31,278 nt of DNA from IMG/VR virus record IMGVR_UViG_3300025927_000021, positions 1-31,278 of that record; one strand, written 5' to 3'. This DNA comes from a virus. Numbering within the stretch: the stretch's first letter is position 1; the number at the start of each line of letters is the position of its first letter. Under the pieces are notes generated by a model. It did not search any database, was not told where the DNA came from, and worked only from the letters and a program-made list of their open reading frames with translations. Position numbers and translations under genes: made by a program. Positions 4,070-17,272 of the stretch are shown here, piece by piece.

Positions 4070-4206
4070 AGATTTGCCTCATCTGCGGCTACGTCCCAAA
4101 CTGCCCCTGTAGGTACTGCGAAGAGTTGATCCCGTTCGATCAGCACATTTGCCAGCCCGAACTTCCGTTCACTGAAGAGATCGAATACAATGGAGAAGAA
4201 GTCTGA
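4066..4206 (+). CDS. Cys-rich miniprotein (46 aa)
   Basis: The protein starts MKICLICGYVPNCPCRYCEE. Cysteines C4, C7, C13, C15, C18 and C29, with H27, suggest one or two bound zinc ions. GTG 4066 overlaps the previous stop (GTGA) and has GAGGAG (4052-4057) 8 nt upstream. The stop overlaps the next ATG as TGATG. It is one of several Cys-rich miniproteins in this phage. The C-terminus is acidic (TEEIEYNGEEV). A CCTGTAGG motif at 4106-4113 is inside the gene. Confidence 0.75.
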   Translation: MKICLICGYVPNCPCRYCEELIPFDQHICQPELPFTEEIEYNGEEV

Positions 4207-4526
4207 TGGAACTAACAGACATACATTGGGTGGCTGGATTCCTCGAAGGTGAGGGTGCATTCAAGCTAGCCAAAGTTGGAAACAAGACATACATTCGTAT
4301 CTCTGCTGCATCTACTGACGAGGATGTTATCGAGAGATTGGATGGCTTGACTATCCACGGCACAATGCATGGCCCTTATCAGTACAAGAGCAATCTGGAA
4401 TACTGGACCTGGGAAATTGCCAAGCAAAAGCACGTTGCAGCATTGCTCATGACAATCTATCCGATCATGTCAGAGCGTCGTCAGAACAAAATCTCCGAAC
4501 TACTCACTCACTGGAAAGTAAGCTAA
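4206..4526 (+). CDS. Single-motif LAGLIDADG homing endonuclease (106 aa)
   Basis: Residues 8-17 (WVAGFLEGEG) are a LAGLIDADG motif; the terminal acidic residue is the expected metal ligand. At 106 residues it is shorter than I-CreI-type single-motif enzymes, and it would have to act as a homodimer, cutting a pseudo-palindromic site. It is freestanding rather than inside an intron or intein, and has been integrated into the operon with TGATG and TAATG couplings at its two ends. A close paralogue lies at 12720-13070: both share WVAG-x-x-EGEG, a GPY segment, DVAALMMTLYP-like residues and a WDNRQ/SERRQ segment. Confidence 0.8.
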   Translation: MELTDIHWVAGFLEGEGAFKLAKVGNKTYIRISAASTDEDVIERLDGLTIHGTMHGPYQYKSNLEYWTWEIAKQKHVAALLMTIYPIMSERRQNKISELLTHWKVS

Positions 4527-6379
4527 TGGAACTGTCATTCAATCCGGACAATGAACCTGAGAAGCAGCCCGAGTTTTTTAACTTGGATGATGAGATTCGC
4601 AAACTGGTGGAGTCAACTGAGCTTCACAAAGAGGAAGTCATCAAGGTCGAGACTGACTACCAGACAAAGCACAACGAAATCATCGCCAAGATTGAGGCTC
4701 TAAGACAGCGCCTAGTTGAGAACAACACAACGAAGTACAAGATTCTCGACAAGGCTCGTAGCAAGTACGACGAGGATATGGCTCGCCTAGCTGCACTGCG
4801 TAGACAGAAGCTCGAAGAAGAGAAGAACAAAGTCTTTGAAGAGACCATCGCTCTCATCAAGGAAATCTGTGAGGACTTTGCCGCTTGGCATCAGGCCCGT
4901 GAATACCAGGTGGAAGATATCGTGCGTATCGTCCACCAGTATCTCATCGGTTCATCCGGCGTGATGAATGCGAACGAGATGGCTCTCGGTAAGACGTTCG
5001 AGAGTTTGGTCGCATTGTACATCATCACTAAGCTGTTTGAGCGCAAGCACAATCGGAAGCCAACTATGCTCTGGTTGACCAAGCTCTCAATTCTCACAAC
5101 TGGTGGCACAAAGAATGAGGCAACTCGGTGGAATCCTGAGCTGCGTATGTTCCCGCTAAAGGGTGCCGATCACAAGGCTGCCAAAGAGATGGTCTTGAAG
5201 TTCGCACGTACTGGTGGTACCTGTGTTCTCACCAACTACGAGACAATCAAGACCACGCCAGAAGCCCAGAAGATTCACTGGGATATCGTCATCATGGATG
5301 AGGTCCACAAACTGAAGGGCGGAGCTAATTCCGGTGGACCTACAGCAATTTGGGAGGCGGTTAAGAACCTCTCAATGGGCTTCACAATGATGCTCACCGG
5401 CACGCCGATGGTCAATAAGGTGGAGGAAATCTGGTCCTACCTTCATATCTTCGATGCCGATGCTTTCCCGGATGCAAAGCGTTTCGCTCGACAGTTCTCC
5501 GCATTTCGTGACCTGAGTGGGAATCTTCAATTCTCCCTACAGTCCGAGCGGATGTTGAAGGACATTCTGCGTGGCCGTTTGATCCGTAGGACAGCGACAG
5601 AAGTTGGGCTGCAACTTCCTCCCGTCAACTACCAGGACGTCGTTCTGCCTCACAACTTGCAGCAGGGTGAGTTGTACCAGAAGATGCGGACAGAGTTCTT
5701 CATCTGGTTGGACAAGCAAGAGAAGGCACTATCTGCCACGTCTCTCCTTGCACAATTGACTCGGCTTCGTCAGATCAACGTTCTCCCCGTTGCAACATTC
5801 AAGATCAAGGATGCCGATGGGTTTGTGGTTGACACAATCAAGCTCGATGTTCGTGACTCGTCAAAGCTCGATGAGGCCGTCGATATCATCATGCAAACTG
5901 GCGATCAGGTCATTGTGTTCAGCAATTTCCTCGAACCGATGGAAGAACTTGCTCTCCGCCTACAGGTGGAGGGTCTCCGCCCAGAGATTATCTCCAGCAA
6001 GTACGCCAAGGAAATGGCGACTTATGAGACGGACTTCCAGCAGAAGAAGATTGACGTGCTGATGATTACCCTCGGAATGGGTGAGGGATTGAACTTGCAC
6101 AAGGACACTGCTAAGTGGCCCGGTGGTGCTCGTGCAGTTATCATGCTGGATCAGTGGTGGAATGACGCTCGTAACCGTCAGGCAATTGCCCGTGCGGTTC
6201 GTCCGGGTGAGAATGCCGGCGAGCCAGTGTTCGTCTACAATCTGATGTGCGACGGTTCTGTCGACTTCTTCATCCGTGCGTTGTGTGATGACAAGAACGC
6301 TCAGCTTGACTCATTGACTGAATCGTCTGAGCTTCGTCCGTCCGCTGACTGGAAGAACTACCTGAAGGACTTGTTGTGA
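4526..6379 (+). CDS. SNF2-family DNA helicase/translocase (617 aa)
   Basis: A superfamily 2 ATPase of SNF2 type. Motifs in order: Walker A NEMALGKT (150-157), motif II DEVH (258-261), motif III LTGTP (290-294), and motif VI RQAIARAVRPGEN (551-563), matching the SNF2 QAxxRxxRxGQ pattern. The first 120 residues form a long charged coiled coil. The Walker A carries Asn and Ala where DEMGLGKT is usual. Such helicases occur in many phages and may remodel DNA-bound proteins or assist recombination. It starts at ATG 4526, overlapping the preceding stop, and ends overlapping a GTG (GTGA) of the next gene. Confidence 0.92.
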   Translation: MELSFNPDNEPEKQPEFFNLDDEIRKLVESTELHKEEVIKVETDYQTKHNEIIAKIEALRQRLVENNTTKYKILDKARSKYDEDMARLAALRRQKLEEEKNKVFEETIALIKEICEDFAAWHQAREYQVEDIVRIVHQYLIGSSGVMNANEMALGKTFESLVALYIITKLFERKHNRKPTMLWLTKLSILTTGGTKNEATRWNPELRMFPLKGADHKAAKEMVLKFARTGGTCVLTNYETIKTTPEAQKIHWDIVIMDEVHKLKGGANSGGPTAIWEAVKNLSMGFTMMLTGTPMVNKVEEIWSYLHIFDADAFPDAKRFARQFSAFRDLSGNLQFSLQSERMLKDILRGRLIRRTATEVGLQLPPVNYQDVVLPHNLQQGELYQKMRTEFFIWLDKQEKALSATSLLAQLTRLRQINVLPVATFKIKDADGFVVDTIKLDVRDSSKLDEAVDIIMQTGDQVIVFSNFLEPMEELALRLQVEGLRPEIISSKYAKEMATYETDFQQKKIDVLMITLGMGEGLNLHKDTAKWPGGARAVIMLDQWWNDARNRQAIARAVRPGENAGEPVFVYNLMCDGSVDFFIRALCDDKNAQLDSLTESSELRPSADWKNYLKDLL

Positions 6380-8984: not shown

Positions 8985-8989
8985 TCTTT

Positions 8990-9026
8990 AGGGGGAGAGT
9001 GTGAGTGAGACGACTCTGCTCCCCCT
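8990..9026 (+). terminator. Terminator-like hairpin
   Basis: AGGGGGAG (8990-8997) pairs with CTCCCCCT (9019-9026), with AGT/ACT continuing the stem across a 3-nt bulge. It follows the stop at 8984. No T tract follows. It is the first of five hairpins lying around the tRNA-like element. Confidence 0.65.
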
Positions 9027-9028
9027 AA

Positions 9029-9063
9029 TCATCTCCAACTAGCTGCCTGGTTAGTAGAGATGA
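9029..9063 (+). other. Hairpin directly before the tRNA-like element
   Basis: TCATCTC (9029-9035) pairs perfectly with GAGATGA (9057-9063), with a weaker ACTA/TAGT inner helix. It ends 1 nt before the acceptor stem of the tRNA-like element. Confidence 0.55.
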
Positions 9064-9064
9064 C

Positions 9065-9153
9065 AAGCTAGTAGCATATCTCAGGACAATGCGCCCCGTG
9101 GAGTCATGTGCCACATAAGGGGAAAGATGCGGGTTCAAATCCCGCCTAGCTTG
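9065..9153 (+). tRNA. tRNA-like element, possible CAU anticodon, non-standard
   Basis: Acceptor AAGCTAG (9065-9071) pairs with CTAGCTT (9146-9152). D stem GCAT (9074-9077) pairs with ATGC (9089-9092), and the loop contains GG. T stem GCGGG/CCCGC (9129-9133, 9141-9145) encloses TTCAAAT, a canonical T loop. The anticodon arm is abnormal: GTGG (9098-9101) pairs with CCAC (9111-9114); read as a 7-nt loop, GTCATGT places CAT at the anticodon. An extra CCCC (9094-9097)/GGGG (9119-9122) helix extends that arm with an ATAA bulge. CCA is not encoded. It could be a divergent tRNA-Met/Ile or a tRNA mimic with no decoding role. Confidence 0.55.
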
Positions 9154-9155
9154 CT

Positions 9156-9295
9156 GGAGAGGGAAACTGTGCGTGTGTCATACCATTGTGGAGTTTCCCT
9201 CTCCGACAGTAACCAATGGGAAGGTTCTTTCTTTCTTTCTCCCTTCCCATTGGGACGGTTGAGTGCCCCACCTAGTCTCTCTGGGTGGGGCACTC
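9156..9295 (+). ncRNA. Three consecutive long hairpins after the tRNA-like element
   Basis: Three perfect stems follow one another: 13 bp, GGAGAGGGAAACT (9156-9168) with AGTTTCCCTCTCC (9192-9204); 12 bp, CCAATGGGAAGG (9213-9224) with CCTTCCCATTGG (9242-9253), the loop being four TTCT-type repeats; and 12 bp, GAGTGCCCCACC (9261-9272) with GGTGGGGCACTC (9284-9295). They leave gaps of only 7-8 nt. A single terminator would not need three stems. A structured RNA, RNA-processing sites flanking the tRNA-like element, or tandem terminators are all possible. No credible coding frame with a ribosome site spans 8985-9334. Confidence 0.6.
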
Positions 9296-9334
9296 CCGTA
9301 TAAAGCCTCCAATTTGCCGAACGGAGTCGCAATT

Positions 9335-9478
9335 ATGGATGATGGAGTCCTACTCTTCAACACAGCCATTATCCTGAGTGTCTTTGCAGATACTCGGGAT
9401 ATCGAACTCACTCAGTGGATGATTACCCCGGTATTCGCCATTGAGATTGAGGTCTTTGAAGATGGCGAGCAGAACTGA
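9335..9478 (+). CDS. Small hypothetical protein (47 aa)
   Basis: ATG 9335 has CGGAG 7-8 nt upstream, inside a 14-bp sequence that also occurs at 1272-1285. The protein starts MDDGVLLFNTAIILSVFADT, with a short hydrophobic stretch (VLLFNTAIILSVF) that could be a weak membrane segment or a buried helix, and ends acidic. Function unknown. The stop overlaps ATG 9478 (TGATG). First gene of the second early operon. I see no clear promoter immediately upstream. Confidence 0.55.
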   Translation: MDDGVLLFNTAIILSVFADTRDIELTQWMITPVFAIEIEVFEDGEQN

Positions 9479-12666: not shown

Positions 12667-12672
12667 TTGACA

Positions 12673-12702
12673 GTAGCCCCCGGTCGAAAGGCCGGGGGCT
12701 AC
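12673..12702 (+). terminator. 11-bp GC-rich hairpin
   Basis: GTAGCCCCCGG (12673-12683) pairs perfectly with CCGGGGGCTAC (12692-12702) around TCGAAAGG. Only a short T-rich sequence follows (TTGTCTCT). It starts 6 nt after the DUF669-like stop and lies 17 nt before the second LAGLIDADG gene, so that gene may be only partly read through. Confidence 0.75.
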
Positions 12703-12719
12703 TTGTCTCTGGAGACATT

Positions 12720-13070
12720 ATGGAAATCAAGGACCTATATTGGGTTGCTGGATTGATAGAGGGGGAGGGCTGTTTCTTTTTATATGAAAGCGGCAATTCT
12801 TGCCTTAGATTCTCCATGTCCCTGACAGAGAAGGCTGTGCTAGAACATGCACAGAAGATAATTGGACTTGGAACGATAAGGGGACCGTACCATAATAAGA
12901 AGCGCACTAAACCATTTTGGGTTTGGGGAATCTCTAGAGATAGAGATGTTGCTGCTTTAATGATGACCCTCTATCCTCTAATGTGGGATAACAGACAAGA
13001 AACTATTGACGATCTGCTAGAAATTTGGAGGTCTAAGCCTGTCGTCAAGCATAGGAATACGGTGCCATGA
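12720..13070 (+). CDS. Second LAGLIDADG homing endonuclease (116 aa)
   Basis: Residues 8-17 read WVAGLIEGEG, a LAGLIDADG motif. It is paralogous to the product at 4206-4526 (same motif spacing, GPYHNK versus GPYQYK, DVAALMMTLYPLM versus HVAALLMTIYPIM). ATG 12720 has GGAG 7 nt upstream, and the stop overlaps ATG 13067 of the primase-helicase (ATGA). The sequence is visibly more AT-rich than its neighbours (a run encoding CFFLYES), a sign of recent acquisition. It has landed just after a terminator-like hairpin, between the recombination and replication genes. Confidence 0.82.
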   Translation: MEIKDLYWVAGLIEGEGCFFLYESGNSCLRFSMSLTEKAVLEHAQKIIGLGTIRGPYHNKKRTKPFWVWGISRDRDVAALMMTLYPLMWDNRQETIDDLLEIWRSKPVVKHRNTVP

Positions 13071-16601: not shown

Positions 16602-17016
16602 TCCAGGCACTTCAACAGGCTGGGCCAACATAGACGTAAACGACAAGAAGATCACGCTGGGTAAGTTCGGAATCTCGAAAGGCGATAGCCTAACGGATAT
16701 CTACGAACACGTCCAAGCGGCCGATATAATCGTTTACGAAGGTTTCTGGCTAAGGCCAGATAAGGCAATGAAAGGGGACTTTAACTGGCAAGATAATCCG
16801 GCTGAGAAAGCGATTGGCTCTTTGCTGACTCTTTGTAAGCTGAGTGGAAAGACAAAGATTGTAAAGCAGCAACCTTCACAGCGTGTACCTGGCTTCGCAT
16901 TTGCCGGATTGAAGTATGTACCGAAGGCGAAAGGAAAACACTGGCAAGACGCTCTGGCTCACGCTGTTTTTTATGCGGTATCTGTACTTCATGCCAATCC
17001 TGTGCGGACACCCTGA
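16582..17016 (+). CDS. RuvC-like Holliday junction resolvase (144 aa)
   Basis: The RNase H-fold signature LGIDPGTSTGWA (D7), VYEGFW (E53) and HWQDALAHA (H120, D123) match the catalytic acids of the RuvC family. Phage members cut branched DNA before packaging or during recombination. GTG 16582 has AGGAAG about 10 nt upstream. This is the last plus-strand gene, and its 3' half is antisense to the C-terminal part of the whiB gene. Confidence 0.88.
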   Translation: MRILGIDPGTSTGWANIDVNDKKITLGKFGISKGDSLTDIYEHVQAADIIVYEGFWLRPDKAMKGDFNWQDNPAEKAIGSLLTLCKLSGKTKIVKQQPSQRVPGFAFAGLKYVPKAKGKHWQDALAHAVFYAVSVLHANPVRTP

Positions 17017-17272
17017 GTATGTTGCGTCTTAGCTCACCTACAGGGATGCCAGTTACCATCGAAGAGACTCTTATCTTTTCTCGTTCGCTATAGGTAGTGC
17101 CGCCCCAAACTCCGGTTTCGCCGTTGAAAATTGCCCAGTCAAGACACGGGTCTTTGACTGGGCAATTTACGCATACACGGATGGCACGTAAATCGTCTTC
17201 AATTGTTGCCAGGTAGAAGTTATGTGGAAGAGCTCCCCGGCAAGCAGCCTCTTTCATCCATGTTCTGTCCAT
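16781..17272 (-). CDS. WhiB-family Fe-S transcription regulator (163 aa)
   Basis: C11, C34-V-N-C37 and C43 are the four ligands of the WhiB [4Fe-4S] cluster, followed by the GVWGGT turn (54-59). WhiB-like proteins bind SigA region 4 and redirect host transcription; phage copies are known to interfere with host WhiB function. The core is only about 85 residues; the other 78 residues overlap ruvC in antisense and are not conserved family sequence as far as I can see. ATG 17272 has AGGAG just 2 nt upstream, a tight spacing; M6 is an alternative. Isolated on the minus strand, it may have its own promoter, though I cannot identify one confidently. Confidence 0.88.
   Translation of the reverse strand: MDRTWMKEAACRGALPHNFYLATIEDDLRAIRVCVNCPVKDPCLDWAIFNGETGVWGGTTYSEREKIRVSSMVTGIPVGELRRNILRVSAQDWHEVQIPHKKQREPERLASVFLSPSVHTSIRQMRSQVHAVKVAALQSLSFHSAYKESAKSQSLSQPDYLAS

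Follow-up and report, generated by a model that had tools for sequence, protein, structure and literature searches.

A conserved, apparently non-decoding tRNA-like element at a phage tRNA locus

Genomic setting

The window, by which the whole stretch of DNA analysed is meant, is a virus record of 31,278 bases (IMGVR_UViG_3300025927_000021). Replication genes lie on the plus strand (SNF2-type helicase, PD-(D/E)XK nuclease, AAA protein, primase/helicase and family A DNA polymerase) and long genes, which are probably virion genes, on the minus strand. An actinobacterial host is suggested by a WhiB-like protein that is encoded at 16781-17272. Podoviridae sp. ctEqG8 (MW202795.1) was the nearest relative found that carries annotation.

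The locus is a train of hairpins at 8988-9295 with a tRNA-like element inside it (Table 1). The train sits between gene P0002, which is followed by a poorly conserved small ORF reaching to 8984, and a 47-aa ORF at 9335. Searches of P0002 against Pfam and PHROG gave no match, and homologs were found in the relatives L012, L018, L035, L040, L041, L058, L059, L060 and MW202795.1.

Elsewhere in the window, a segment at 12704-13066 is absent in L002 and L003, which are otherwise identical there. The LAGLIDADG-like endonuclease ORF that it carries (12720-13070) is a recent mobile insertion or loss, and a paralogue lies at 4206-4526. Further long stems were seen at 572-601, 1017-1048, 1241-1264, 1385-1408, 12672-12703 and 17128-17168, those at 1017-1048 and 12672-12703 directly 3' of genes; these are probably terminators or mRNA ends.

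Table 1. Coordinates of the features at the P0002 locus of the window
Feature	Coordinates	Strand	Description
Gene P0002	8041..8826	+	Locus marker in relatives; basic RGxxGKRGxRALS motif, acidic tail
Hairpin 1 (H1)	8988..9028	+	10-bp stem, 21-nt loop with small inner stem
Hairpin 2 (H2)	9029..9063	+	7+7 bp, directly 5' of the tRNA-like element; fold z -4.2
tRNA-like element	9064..9153	+	Acceptor, D and T arms; Rfam RF00005, 38.6 bits
Hairpin in the anticodon-arm place	9094..9122	+	CCCC-GTGG-AGTCATGTG-CCAC-ATAA-GGGG; from the fold
Hairpin 4 (H4)	9155..9205	+	14-bp stem, directly 3' of the tRNA-like element
Hairpin 5 (H5)	9213..9253	+	12-bp stem, pyrimidine-rich loop
Hairpin 6 (H6)	9261..9295	+	15-bp stem, end of train, no T run
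Small ORF, 47 aa	9335..9478	+	3' of the hairpin train; 85% identity in L035, 79% in L005

Structure and detection of the tRNA-like element

A preliminary description of this DNA had placed a tRNA-like element with acceptor, D and T arms in a train of hairpins, and the fold, an Rfam match and covariation bear this out. The 89-nt fold at 9065-9153 gains an extra pair, C9064-G9153, which gives an acceptor stem of 8 bp (9064-9071 with 9146-9153). The D arm with its GG loop spans 9074-9092, the T arm 9129-9145 with the loop TTCAAAT, and the discriminator position is G9153. Arms and GG and TTCRA loops are those of a canonical tRNA gene, and together they form the elbow of a tRNA. CCA is not encoded at the 3' end, as had been read from the sequence before.

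The anticodon arm is replaced by a two-part hairpin of 29 nt, whereas a canonical arm has 17 nt with a 5-bp stem and a 7-nt loop, and because of this arm the element was not classed as a tRNA gene. The hairpin contains the extra CCCC/GGGG helix by which the arm had earlier been called abnormal, and its tip, a 7-nt G-U-CAU-G-U, resembles an anticodon loop. A pattern search for the exact hairpin matched only known close relatives. A small ORF that starts within the hairpin (9106-9303) was rejected, as it is broken in L035.

The Rfam check proposed in the preliminary description succeeded under laxer filters, where the tRNA model matched 9065-9153 over its full length at 38.6 bits (cut-off 29 bits); in this match the anticodon arm holds a long insert. 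The E-value was 7.7e-7 in a 371-base stretch and 1.6e-8 when the record was searched with this one family. With default filters no match was reported at the element, and ARAGORN, run on the window, called no tRNA there. Model R1 gave 54.1 bits on the element, from which it had itself been built. The region folds far better than its shuffles (z = -7.8 over 361 nt, z = -8.8 over 316 nt) and the element by itself only moderately so (z = -2.2); the case for it therefore rests on relatives and not on folding energy. A distant blastn search of the region against annotated phages gave no match.

Relatives and covariation

The close relative L035, on the same contig as L017, has a P0002 that is 94% identical and a tRNA-like element that differs at five of 90 nt; four of the differences form two compensated T-stem pairs, and the fifth falls in the ATAA bulge of the anticodon-arm hairpin, which is otherwise kept. 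Distant relatives were located via P0002. In L012 (P0002 47% identical) the element lies right 3' of P0002, scores 49.4 bits and has an enlarged anticodon loop that is GAA-like. In L060, whose P0002 is about 36% identical to the L012 protein, P0002 is followed by a normal tRNA-Arg and, about 75 nt further on, by a tRNA-like element that runs from D stem through GTGC and AAGAT to T stem and shares the window acceptor (AGCTAG/CTAGCT) and D arm (TA-GCAT...ATGC-G). The anticodon arm differs by lineage: the window and L035 have a hairpin there, L012 has an enlarged loop and L060 nothing.

Ordinary tRNAs also follow P0002, as tRNA-Arg, as Leu/Arg/Lys or as Leu/Arg/Lys/Ile (L040, L041, MW202795.1), and the element occupies the place of these ordinary genes. 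L018, L058 and L059 have neither a tRNA nor a tRNA-like element after P0002, so the function is not essential to the phage family; model R1, run over most of the remaining sequence of these three, L012 and L060, found no further member. A structured non-coding stretch follows P0002 in all relatives (z about -3 to -9, weak in L018 at -1.5). Early in it, three relatives have a similar stretch, CCTGAGCAAG...TTAAA...GCTCC with a T/C tract (L040 6905-6945, L060 6870-6905, L018 1650-1685).

Covariation was assessed on the window, L035, L060 and L012, four sequences of which two are close, with anticodon arms removed and cores aligned over 62 columns. Standard pairs were found in 66 of 66 countable cells and changes on both sides in 10 of 17 pairs, counts that are biased toward the structure, which was chosen from the same sequences, the core letters being hand-entered from the loci. 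None of 500 shuffles reached the paired-cell and double-change values, and sliding the structure by 1-3 columns left 20-45% of cells paired. The eighth acceptor pair (-1:73) occurs as C-G, G-C and U-A. Compensatory changes across relatives, on which the preliminary description had made its reading depend, were thus found in both comparisons, and to judge from these alignments the acceptor, D and T arms are under selection. The element is a real, conserved and apparently non-decoding tRNA-like structure, neither just a terminator nor an ordinary tRNA.

Flanking hairpins

Five hairpins in 8988-9295 flank the element, with gaps of at most 8 nt. The three long stems of the preliminary description are all present and as closely spaced as it stated; their lengths had been put slightly short (13, 12 and 12 bp, where 14, 12 and 15 bp were found). 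Its second hairpin is H2. Its terminator-like hairpin exists as the stem of H1, probably the end of the P0002 message, but has no T run 3' of the stem and is not called by the terminator scan (G+C-rich stem plus T run), which was empty throughout 8988-9295. Some bacterial terminators lack a T run, so H1 or H6 may still terminate transcription.

Compared with the window, L035 precisely lacks H4 and has an unrelated hairpin in place of H1; the hairpins are therefore replaceable modules. With hairpins exchanged or lost among relatives and ordinary tRNAs at the same place, the 306 nt do not hold together as a single unit. H2, H5 and H6 are identical in L035, and with the spacer they amount to 160 nt with 0 changes; at fourfold sites 3-16% are changed in most neighbouring genes and 35% in the small ORF at 9335. 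A recombination tract could also have left these 160 nt unchanged. P0002 of L058 and L059 is followed by hairpins with CTTCTTTC loops, which come after a GCTAAC similar to that at H5. The flanking hairpins look like ordinary RNA-end structures. A switch between H2 (ACTAGCT) and the acceptor 5' strand (AGCTAGT) was considered and rejected: the two are complementary in the window and the complementarity is lost in L012.

Junctions between tRNAs and reading frames

Six times, at five real tRNAs and at the element of L060, A73 is followed by CTATG, the start of an ORF of 62-131 aa that begins 2 nt after base 73 (L040, L041, MW202795.1 and L060; positions L040 7427-7430, L041 8147-8150 and 8870-8873, L051 7595-7598 and 9000-9003, L060 7928-7931). 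The six ORFs are mutually unrelated, so it is the junction that is conserved and not the ORF. Among 145 distinct tRNAs, over all loci examined, the exact junction is limited to the P0002 phage family. In MW202795.1 the depositors' own CDS start at these junctions, which leave no space for a Shine-Dalgarno or ribosome-binding site outside the folded tRNA. In L060 the anticodon-less element has the junction and the neighbouring tRNA-Arg does not. The element is not directly adjoined by CTATG in the window, L035 and L012, a direct border with an ORF being seen in the other relatives named, and the junction argument therefore rests on relatives. Near-leaderless mRNAs arising from tRNA 3' processing would explain the fixed junction; in M. 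tuberculosis, an actinobacterium, mRNAs of the leaderless type are widespread (PMC3898074).

Similar elements in other genomes

Elements whose anticodon arm is short or missing were searched for with narrow patterns, which held GCAT/ATGC fixed in the D stem and so give no census. The patterns matched structurally sound elements only in the viral contigs L060, L111 and L084, the last with a very short anticodon arm, and weaker ones in L148 and L116. The L179 match was set aside as a callable tRNA-Thr and that in L180 as a nearly normal tRNA. In 84,980 genomes the same search gave 12 matches, none with acceptor and T-stem pairing. A pattern of AGCTAG acceptor and GCAT D arm found the window type, L060 and an element in L074, its other matches looking like chance. 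The L074 element (5622-5710, in the tRNA cluster of a 211-kb contig) has the AGCTAG acceptor, the GCAT D stem, a 14-nt anticodon loop and no TTCRA.

The crAss-like phage cr131_1 (NC_055902.1), which is unrelated to the P0002 phage family, has an unannotated tRNA-like element without an anticodon arm that scores 41.1 bits with the Rfam tRNA model (L194 500-564, minus strand; near 80399-80463 of NC_055902.1). It lies between the DNA polymerase gene and its neighbour and is absent in the relative cr130_1. Coming from so narrow a pattern, these matches are no more than suggestive of anticodon-less elements outside the P0002 phage family. A second tRNA-like sequence, intergenic and adjoining the DNA polymerase gene, is found in both cr131_1 and cr130_1 (L194, L195); its acceptor is strongly changed yet paired (TGCAGTG/CACTGCA versus GATAGAG/CTCTATC), the T stem is paired and the unusual middle conserved, and neither ARAGORN nor Rfam calls it.

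Interpretation

The usual explanations of phage tRNAs are codon use or the replacement of tRNAs destroyed by host defences. Decoding cannot account for a tRNA shape that is conserved but has no usable anticodon, that sits at a locus of real tRNAs and that in one relative shares their ORF junction. The reading we consider best supported, at a little under an even chance, is that the element serves as punctuation in cis. Host enzymes of tRNA processing would cut a long plus-strand transcript at the element, RNase P at its 5' end and RNase Z, or some other 3' nuclease, behind base 73. The message of P0002 would in this way be separated from the genes downstream, and the hairpins on either side would shield the new RNA ends. 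In the relatives with junctions, a cut behind base 73 would give messages with a leader of two bases; in the window, where hairpins follow the element, the downstream product would presumably be an RNA whose 5' end is protected. We infer transcription, cleavage and a benefit to the phage alike. RNase P and RNase Z need the acceptor, T arm and elbow for cutting, the anticodon being dispensable, and this fits the arms that were kept as against the one that was lost. Punctuation is further favoured by the Rfam match, the covariation, the L060 copy, the ordinary tRNAs at the locus and the CTATG junctions. Against it count the acceptor length of 8 bp and the close packing of hairpins on the two ends, both of which could impede cleavage, as do the conserved D arm and the replacement hairpin of the window, which punctuation alone does not require.

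Ranked second is a mimic acting in trans, a processed stable small RNA that would be a decoy or sponge for a host tRNA-binding protein (a tRNA-end-modifying toxin, a modification enzyme or RNase P), bound via elbow and acceptor with no anticodon read. The full elbow is conserved, beyond acceptor and T arm, and hairpins on both sides would suit a stable RNA; phage tRNAs counter tRNA-cutting defences (PMC13096335), and tRNA-end-modifying toxins such as MenT are present in actinobacteria (PMC11541572). The part that would face the partner nevertheless varies from hairpin to enlarged loop to nothing, no target was identified, and the copy in L060 is linked to an ORF that starts two bases from it. 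The tRNA mimic or processed RNA proposed at the outset thus keeps some credit, the junctions favouring cis processing over a captor of enzymes, and we rate the trans-acting mimic as rather doubtful. Decay of a tRNA gene to a state of no present function would agree with the ordinary tRNAs at the same locus and with irregular tRNA-like sequences in tRNA clusters of other phages, but it is improbable: pairing holds in every cell of the 17 pairs, for 10 pairs through changes on both sides, four of the five window-L035 changes form two compensated pairs, and decay would not spare everything except the anticodon arm in separate lineages.

Still less probable is a strong multi-hairpin terminator or mRNA-stability region with an incidental resemblance to tRNA. 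That nearly all relatives have a structured non-coding stretch after P0002, with or without a tRNA, and that the hairpins are exchangeable would suit it; against it speak the Rfam match, the loop signals of a tRNA and the covariation, all specific to the tRNA fold, as well as the missing T run and the empty terminator scan. We give least credence to a non-canonical tRNA that decodes, for instance with CAU from GUCAUGU in an elongated arm, or from which an insert is spliced. The anticodon-like hairpin tip and the GAA-like loop of L012 invite this idea, yet the anticodons of the three lineages would disagree, the window arm has 29 nt and not 17, and L060 has no arm to read; splicing is ruled out there, with nothing to splice. 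All known bacterial tRNAs are canonical cloverleaves (PMC11551756), which also speaks against it.

Beyond this locus, punctuation in cis might extend to a phage class of tRNA-derived RNAs that shed the anticodon arm, are kept as cleavage punctuation and yield near-leaderless messages, a proposal we consider possible but tentative. If it is true, the tRNA body and not decoding is what these phages keep. With a tRNA-like element that lacks an anticodon, the roles that a phage tRNA gene may have can be told apart, and the question of what phage tRNAs are for becomes testable at one locus. ARAGORN and default Rfam scans are blind to such elements, and cr131_1 holds another; anticodon-less tRNA-like elements may therefore be commoner than annotated. 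A literature search, outside which subscription journals mostly lay, found no phage tRNA-like elements without an anticodon arm, which is weak evidence of novelty.

Comparison with known systems

With phage tRNA genes (RF00005) the element shares acceptor, D and T arms, the GG D loop, the TTCRA T loop and a locus of real tRNAs; it differs in having no normal anticodon arm, no ARAGORN call and an 8-bp acceptor whose -1:73 pair covaries. As in mitochondrial tRNA punctuation (e.g. PMC8601606), tRNA shapes stand between genes of one transcript, and in the phage relatives an ORF starts 2 nt after the tRNA. The differences are the phage setting, a single punctuating element without an anticodon, a cleavage that is putative, and a window element that does not adjoin an ORF.

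Bacterial Y RNAs (YrlA) are non-decoding, tRNA-mimicking partners of Ro60 with tRNA-like D and T arms; the phage element differs in keeping a normal acceptor stem. No TROVE/Ro60 gene was found in the window and seven related records, eight in all and possibly incomplete, and the protein could come from the host. The tRNA-like domain of tmRNA likewise has an acceptor and a T arm but no normal anticodon arm. A G-U at pair 3-70 is the alanine signal; the phage element has G3-C70, a normal D arm, D and T stems that are only some 40 nt apart, and no tag-coding domain. Rfam Y RNA and tmRNA models did not match in the 371-base stretch. The element is filed neither as a Y RNA nor as a tmRNA.
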